Assembly: GCA_024277525.1 (NCBI GenBank)
Contig: JAJRUZ010000066.1
Location: 1 to 35,995, forward strand
Origin: Caldifarciminota bacterium
GTDB lineage: Bacteria; Hydrothermota; Hydrothermia; Hydrothermales; JAJRUZ01
Length of the DNA: 35,995 nt
Direction: 5' to 3'
Below are positions 1,130 to 7,877 of the stretch, piece after piece (position 1 is the first letter of the stretch; each line of letters begins with the position of its first letter). The position numbers and the translations under genes are program-made. The notes under the pieces were generated by a model. The model did no database searches. It worked only from the letters and a program-made list of their open reading frames with translations, and had not been told where the DNA came from.

Positions 1130-1136
1130 TTAAAAT

Positions 1137-1193
1137 GTGTGATAAATCACACCGCTACAGTTGTATTTATTGTAGCGGTCGCATTTATGCGAC
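1137..1193. repeat. Triple-hairpin palindromic repeat element
   Basis: Three hairpins abut one another. Hairpin 1 is GTGTGATAAATCACAC (1137-1152). Hairpin 2 has arms CCGCTACA (1152-1159) and TGTAGCGG (1171-1178) around an 11-nt loop. Hairpin 3 is GTCGCATTTATGCGAC (1178-1193). Hairpins 1 and 3 have different 5-bp stems but share a core that is ATAAAT in one and its reverse complement ATTTAT in the other. The whole is therefore an inverted pair of variable-stem palindromes. It lies between two same-strand genes, just before a Shine-Dalgarno. It resembles REP/MITE-like intergenic palindromes of uncultivated bacteria, and a degraded half copy lies at 9255-9276. Confidence 0.75.
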
Positions 1194-1212
1194 AGAATAA
1201 AGGAGGTTAATT

Positions 1213-7005: not shown

Positions 7006-7035
7006 TTGAAAATTTTCTCTTTTTAAACTTAAAAT
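7006..7035 (+). promoter_or_regulatory. Promoter candidate for the NAD synthetase genes
   Basis: TTGAAA (7006-7011), an 18-nt spacer and TAAAAT (7030-7035), with the ATG at 7050. The predicted leader is only about 8 nt and has no Shine-Dalgarno. Confidence 0.4.
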
Positions 7036-7049
7036 CTTTTAATTTAAAA

Positions 7050-7877
7050 ATGAAAATTTTACTTGCTCAACTCTCAACAAAACTCGGTGATGTAAAAGGA
7101 AATGAAAAAAAAATAATAAAAGCAATAGAAAAAGCAAAAGAAGAAAAAGTTTATCTTCTTGTAACTCCTGAACTTGCGACTCTGGGATACGGAAGCGGAG
7201 ATATTTATCTTGATAAAGTTGATTAAAACCTTGAATCCCTTGAAAGAATAAAAAAAGAAATAGATGATTTTTATGCAATAATAGGCTATGTTGAAAAAGA
7301 CAATTATGGATTTTTTTATAATTCGGCTTCTTTAATCCATAAAGGTAAAATAATAGGAAATTACAGAAAGGTTCAACTTGTAAATTACAGATTATTTGAT
7401 GAGAAGAGATACTTTAAAAGGGGAACAAAGCTTCCTGTGTTTGACATAGGGGGGATAAAGATAGGGATTTTAATATGCGAAGATGTGTGGTTTCCGGAGC
7501 CTTCAAGGGCAATGGCATTGAGAGGAGCAGATTTGCTTGTTGTTCTGGGTGCCTCTCCTTTTGAAAGAGGGAAAAAAGAAATATGGGAGGATTTTATGAC
7601 CCAACGAGCAAGGGATAACATAATACCTGCACTTTTCTGCGACCAAGCAGGATGCCAGGACGGTGTCACTTACCTCGGATATTCAATGTATGTTTCCGCA
7701 AGAGGAGATATAGTTAAAAGTGCAAAACTTTTCGAGGAGGATTATTTGCTATGTGAAGTTGACCTTGAAGAAGCCAAAAGATTAAGAAGAAGAGACACAA
7801 GATTAAGGGAATTACATATAGAAATTCTGGAAGAGCTTTTGAATGCTTATAAGGAGATGGAAAATGGTAGAGGTTAA
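7050..7877 (+). pseudogene. Glutaminase (nitrilase-fold) part of NAD synthetase, interrupted by one in-frame TAA
   Basis: This is the ammonia-supplying half of glutamine-dependent NAD+ synthetase. Reading from ATG 7050 gives MKILLAQLST...LLVTPELATLGYGSGDIYLDKVD and then TAA at 7224-7226. The same frame continues without a gap as NLESLERIKKEID... to the natural stop at 7877. The full nitrilase triad is present in this frame: Glu41 (VTPE), the Lys of NYRKVQL (codon at 7368) and the Cys of LICEDVW (codon at 7476). The next in-frame start codon after the stop is GTG 7437, beyond the Lys codon, so re-initiation there could not give an active enzyme. No frameshift is needed to restore the protein, only one base change in the stop codon. 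It could be a fresh nonsense mutation, a sequence error or a read-through site. Confidence 0.85.

Follow-up and report, generated by a model that had tools for sequence, protein, structure and literature searches.

The defining features of GTAG-type REPs are a GTAG tag that stays unpaired and, next to it, a short hairpin with a perfect stem (Di Nocera et al. 2013, PMC3733652). Dimers of these repeats are termed tail to tail when the GTAG termini lie inside and heterodimers when the partners have unlike stems. Heterodimers are preferred, with no obvious explanation, and clearance of long inverted repeats with identical arms has been suggested (Di Nocera et al., PMC3733652). REPs can also function as RNA elements elsewhere (PMC3733652). 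For one such system, the Marinomonas RAYT TnpA-Mb, the REP consists of GTAG, 2 nt, a 5-bp stem and a TTTA loop, in which T12, T13 and A15 are essential and position 14 is free; a stem mismatch is harmful, while the stem sequence is mostly of little weight (PMC8266576).

The element at positions 1137 to 1193 of the window, i.e., the whole 35,995-nt stretch of DNA that was analyzed, is very probably a new yet recognizable relative of these repeats, namely, a tail-to-tail heterodimer of a GTAG-tagged REP, a mobile palindrome of the kind that a small transposase (RAYT) usually copies. Its features were those of GTAG-tagged REPs in tag, size, compensated stems, dispersal, mainly extragenic location, formation of dimers and, in other genomes, linkage to RAYTs. 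An unpaired GTAG was present at one palindrome end in both window copies and in the consensus. The dimensions of the unit (23 nt, with a 5- to 7-bp stem) fell inside the limits for GTAG REPs, which are 20 to 40 bp with a stem of 5 to 13 bp and a loop of 2 to 20 nt.

Structure and position of the dimer

Positions 1137 to 1193 comprised two copies, in opposite orientations, of one 23-nt repeat, TGTAGCG-S5-ATTTAT-S5'. The features of the locus were as follows.

1137 to 1159, minus strand: REP copy A, TGTAGCG-GTGTG-ATTTAT-CACAC, with GTAG tag, CG dinucleotide, 5-bp stem and A-T-closed TTTA loop
1160 to 1170, unstranded: 11-nt spacer GTTGTATTTAT separating the two tails; spacers are unlike in all tail-to-tail dimers seen
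1171 to 1193, plus strand: REP copy B, TGTAGCG-GTCGC-ATTTAT-GCGAC; its stem type is the most frequent, and its 23-mer occurs in MAGs of about nine phyla
1152 to 1178, unstranded: apparent central stem CCGCTACA/TGTAGCGG, formed by inverted conserved REP heads and no separate element
1130 to 1212, plus strand: 83-nt intergenic gap with the dimer; the counterpart gap in the family-level relatives G020 and G019 is shorter and without a REP
1201 to 1206, plus strand: AGGAGG, the ribosome-binding site for the downstream gene that starts with the ATG at 1213; it lies clear of the hairpins

The minus-strand unit reads TGTAGCGGTGTGATTTATCACAC and the plus-strand unit TGTAGCGGTCGCATTTATGCGAC, and the two palindromes are GTGTGAT-AA-ATCACAC (1137 to 1152) and GTCGCAT-TT-ATGCGAC (1178 to 1193). 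The original prediction of outer palindromes with unlike 5-bp stems around a common core was exact in its coordinates, and loop and head were found to be fixed in the family. This prediction had also proposed a triple-hairpin element. All three hairpins were indeed present in the minimum-energy RNA fold of either strand (-26.6 kcal/mol, z -5.1, and -23.6 kcal/mol, z -5.9), and 0 of 200 shuffles were as stable, but the structure proved to be two 23-nt REPs rather than a single element. The central hairpin, in which CCGCTACA (1152 to 1159) is paired with TGTAGCGG (1171 to 1178) across an 11-nt loop, is two TGTAGCGG heads face to face and is expected of any tail-to-tail pair of this repeat. A search for bare 7+2+7 palindromes with at least 3 GC detected six in the window, including these two, and 0 to 4 per simulated sequence. 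Palindrome shape alone is weak evidence, since palindromes of this form also arise by chance; the proof of the element is the repeat family.

The gap holding the dimer separates the stop codon of a 242-aa gene (401 to 1129) from the start codon of a DUF4198 gene. With NikR_C, DUF4198, CbiM, CbiQ and ABC ATPase domains, the neighborhood is a nickel operon, and the earlier placement of the element inside such an operon, before a ribosome site, was correct; the AGGAGG was unpaired in the predicted RNA fold. Two relatives from the same family as the host, G019 and G020, had a DUF4198 neighbor with 47 to 48% identity and the same gene order (242-aa gene, DUF4198, small 137-aa-type gene, CbiM) with a short gap. 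No REP was present in the syntenic operon of G019, G020 or a further relative, G030, and neither a pattern search nor a covariance model detected a copy of the repeat anywhere in the G019 and G020 genomes. As family-level relatives have the same operon without the REP, the element was interpreted as a lineage-specific insertion, and comparison of these sequences suggests, most simply, that it is dispensable to the operon. The relatives, at ∼47% identity in the neighboring protein, are too distant for an exact insertion junction or target duplication to be read, and no signature of excision, transposition or a target site was evident for the window copy.

The 242-aa protein, encoded between nikR and the DUF4198 gene, had no Pfam match. 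The same place ahead of DUF4198 was occupied in G020 and G030 by homologues that conserve an N-terminal HHAMEYIEMESY-like stretch, and in G019 by a diverged form, which suggests that this protein may be an undescribed component of the nickel-uptake operon.

Copies, covariation and dimers of the repeat

The original prediction depended on the element recurring outside this locus and on its stems covarying in the other copies, and both were observed. A pattern search of the genome yielded 33 copies at ≤1 mismatch and none for a reversed-pattern control, while a covariance model detected 44 copies at E ≤0.01. This copy number is modest (33 to 46). The repeat adjoined dozens of unrelated genes, and 34 of 46 copies lay outside ORFs of ≥70 aa as called by a crude ORF caller. 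Single REPs without MITE-like flanks were the prevailing form. Copies with CGTAGCGG heads in contigs C38, C48, C58, C59, C81 and C85 had long common flanks, mostly ending at contig borders; these copies apparently lie just past the end of a repeated gene and were multiplied within a longer repeat. A text search of the literature for the repeat sequence returned chance matches only.

Two further units were noted. A second REP family in this genome, GTAGGAGCGGTTTCCNAACCGCG, numbered ∼51 copies when up to 3 mismatches were allowed (none in the control); it was often found beside the first, for example, at C7:1379-1633, C32:43451, and C56:39243 and 39315; it presumably resembles the Pseudomonas-type GTAG-1 REPs. 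A third REP-like unit, TGTAGCCGCAACCTTTAGGTTGC, adjoined a copy of the first family in the same genome (L008, C24:33252), and similar units flanked a RAYT in a WOR-3 MAG (L099).

Compensation in the stems was examined in 30 distinct copies. Paired stem cells amounted to 97.1% compared to 74% in shuffles, and there were 47 both-sided stem changes compared to 19.7 in shuffles. The covariation score was 0.579, while the shuffled score was 0.178 and 0 of 500 shuffles reached the observed value; sliding the partner by 1 to 3 columns left at most 52% paired. When the genome was searched with head and loop only, ignoring the right arm, 14 exact sites were detected and the right arm was fully paired in 13 of these. 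Hence the claim of compensated stems was sustained: the stems are free in sequence but constrained to pair, with the head and loop fixed.

Loop conservation was determined for 97 A-T-closed copies from all examined loci; the closing A-T pair was assigned to the stem, which leaves TTTA as the loop. Positions 1 and 2 were T in 97 of 97 copies and position 4 was A in 96 of 97; position 3 was T in 86 and C in 11, giving TTNA. The natural variation in this family thus appears, by analogy, to follow the in vitro recognition rules of TnpA-Mb position by position.

In the examined loci, the GTAG-CG family formed 29 distinct dimers (17 head to head, 8 tail to tail and 4 head to tail). None of the 29 had identical stems, compared to 4.7 expected under random partnering of the same stems (P = 0.001), with the limitation that several dimers were derived from one MAG and independence is imperfect.

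Distribution and cognate transposases

Within the host's phylum, a match to the REP was sporadic (11 of 147 genomes), and the host was the sole listed member of its own class among the 11. An identical 23-mer was also found outside this phylum, in MAGs labelled Elusimicrobia, Zixibacteria, Omnitrophota, Ratteibacteria, Sumerlaeota, Nitrospinae, Planctomycetota and Spirochaetes, and was therefore common to about nine phyla. In these MAGs, the covariance model counted as many as 67 copies of the family in a single genome. Bin contamination is possible for G002 and G016 because only two copies were present in each. The exact 23-mer was not found in viral contigs, and there was no phage similarity.

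The proposed check for a REP-type Y1 transposase gave a negative result in the host genome and a positive result elsewhere. No Y1 transposase was detected in this genome with PF01797, and none was detected with two RAYT profiles, A2 (E ≤0.1) and A3, in an assembly that is 96.5% complete; the resident RAYT that characterizes REPINs was thus absent from this assembly. PF01797 matched in 15 of 17 named MAGs with the identical 23-mer. However, absence of a PF01797 match is weak evidence against a RAYT, as this model missed a REP-bracketed RAYT at L057 (18.6 bits, below the cut-off), and the two profiles were built for this reason. Profile A2 was derived from RAYTs such as those in L111 and L162, whose bracketing REPs share the architecture but carry another dinucleotide (TT/TC), and it recovered the L057 RAYT; profile A3 includes the L057 RAYT.

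The L057 gene, located at 1688 to 2137 on the minus strand in the Spirochaetes MAG B62_G9, was flanked by a tail-to-tail dimer (GTGCG/GTCGC, ∼1670 to 1728) and by a third REP of the window family (∼2166 to 2188). A RAYT with 62% identity to it was found at 7011 to 7460 in Candidatus Stahlbacteria CSMAG_1267 (L043, identical to L221). The exact 23-mer overlapped the 3' end of this gene and there supplied the codons for the tail RINATAT; upstream lay a tail-to-tail dimer with GTTTG/GTCGC stems. A similar arrangement was observed at L224, in another genome of the host's phylum. The L057 and L043 proteins matched NF047646, REP-associated tyrosine transposase, with E values of 2e-12 and 2e-16, below the curated cut-off. 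Putative cognate RAYT genes bracketed by the window REP family were thus found in a Spirochaetes MAG and two genomes of the host's phylum. The RAYTs with the best PF01797 scores in high-copy genomes (L087 and L089) were rejected as cognates, as neither was REP bracketed.

In-frame REPs were detected within the coding sequence of 14 of 68 RAYT-like ORFs, compared to 0.05 expected by codon shuffling (L098, L115, L148, L151, L156, L162, L169, L176, L219, L222, L223, L225, L226 and L230). The position was often the same, with a forward REP 22 to 24 codons before the HUH motif and sometimes a reversed one after it, while the REP family varied from RAYT to RAYT. We know of no description of in-frame REPs inside RAYT genes.

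Origin of the dimer and relation to known systems

We infer that the copies in this genome spread by a RAYT-dependent route and that the RAYT was then lost from this genome. Copies would have spread as single-stranded hairpins recognized by an HUH/Y1 RAYT through the GTAG tag and loop, with recognition requiring a paired stem and little stem sequence. In this lineage, the dimer would have been inserted beyond the upstream gene's stop codon; the RAYT would since have been lost or would lie in the unassembled part. The copies appear, on the assembly as it stands, to be orphaned or to have their RAYT gene in that part; REP-flanked genes can break short-read assemblies, and so the ∼4% that is missing could include a RAYT of the host's own. 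As RNA, the dimer would amount to no more than three incidental hairpins separating two cistrons. The suggestion of a mobile palindrome in the original prediction thus agrees with the dispersed family, the operon without the element in relatives and the REP-bracketed RAYTs elsewhere.

A cis-acting RNA (an attenuator, a riboswitch or mRNA-stabilizing hairpins) selected to tune the downstream nickel transport genes would account for the location in transcribed DNA between two genes of the nickel operon, where an unpaired ribosome-binding site lies just downstream, and for the stability of all three hairpins as RNA; REPs are also able to act as RNA elements elsewhere (PMC3733652). This explanation was judged quite improbable, as the syntenic operon lacks the element in G019, G020 and G030, the same repeat lies beside dozens of unrelated genes, the ribosome-binding site is not sequestered and the final hairpin has no T tract behind it. 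A known structured RNA was rejected, as the window had no Rfam match, and a nickel-operon-specific modulator had no support from conservation. Farther still from a credible reading is a protein operator, such as a NikR or CRP/FNR-like site, despite the perfect dyad symmetry, the resemblance of TGTGATAAATCACA to a half-site pair and a NikR-type gene at the start of the operon. Stem bases, expected to be conserved in an operator, vary with compensation while the loop and GTAG head are fixed; moreover, the site is within the operon, away from the promoter, and the family is present at unrelated loci.

The dimer could instead be left over from a larger element with terminal inverted repeats (MITE), in which it was cargo and which a DDE transposase or another enzyme of this kind, not a RAYT, had moved. 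Two genomes of the host's phylum, G108 and G110 (L251-L266), contain many dispersed copies, often at contig ends, of a ∼160-bp element whose inverted ends are GTAATAG...TTTTTCCTAAA and whose center is occupied by two REPs of the window's family, paired head to head as a heterodimer. REPs in these genomes ride in this element, and so REP spread is not necessarily always by RAYT. For the window copy, a MITE origin is improbable: it has no such terminal repeats, single REPs without such flanks are the most frequent form in this genome and RAYT genes are directly REP bracketed.

The GTAG-tagged REP dimer extends REP/RAYT biology to the host's phylum and other candidate phyla and provides natural covariation data that appear to agree, at each position, with recognition rules established in vitro for one REP transposase. 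Two questions become testable, namely, why the partners in a dimer have unlike stems and how one REP both reaches distant phyla and persists without its RAYT. There is also a caution against reading such hairpins as operon-specific regulators. The unusual aspects are one 23-mer in about nine phyla and the REPs embedded in frame in RAYT genes. A tentative and rather doubtful extension is that one REP family, even to the point of an identical 23-mer, circulates across phyla and persists as orphan heterodimers with strictly unlike partner stems in genomes that lack its transposase; if true, it would imply horizontal spread, mobilization in trans by RAYTs that pass through and counterselection of inverted pairs that are identical.

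Comparison with described systems placed the repeat closest to the GTAG REP superfamily (PMC3733652), with which it shares the GTAG end, a 5-bp covarying stem, a short loop, a mostly intergenic location, occurrence as singles and as dimers in all three orientations, heterodimers and the RAYT link. The consensus GTAG-CG-S5-ATTTAT-S5' was not assigned to any one of the 24 published families. Reported hosts of that superfamily are Proteobacteria, Cyanobacteria, Chloroflexi and PVC, whereas the hosts here were mostly candidate phyla, and here every dimer seen was a heterodimer. REPINs (Bertels and Rainey 2011, PMC3116915) and the Escherichia coli BIMEs are likewise RAYT-associated inverted REP pairs with a short spacer; in contrast, the tags here point inward (tail to tail), spacers are variable, copies number in the tens and the host assembly has no RAYT. 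The RAYTs found carry HUH and tyrosine motifs, as in the IS200/IS605 family, but the window copy is not a complete IS with subterminal hairpins, and the REPs are far smaller and GTAG tagged. Finally, the Marinomonas REPtron Mb (group 3 TnpA-REP, PMC8266576) has the same GTAG, 2-nt gap, 5-bp perfect stem and TTTA loop, and the loop positions essential in vitro are those conserved here, while its free position 14 is the variable one. The repeat here differs in an extra A-T closing pair, and the likeness covers tag, spacing, stem length and loop.
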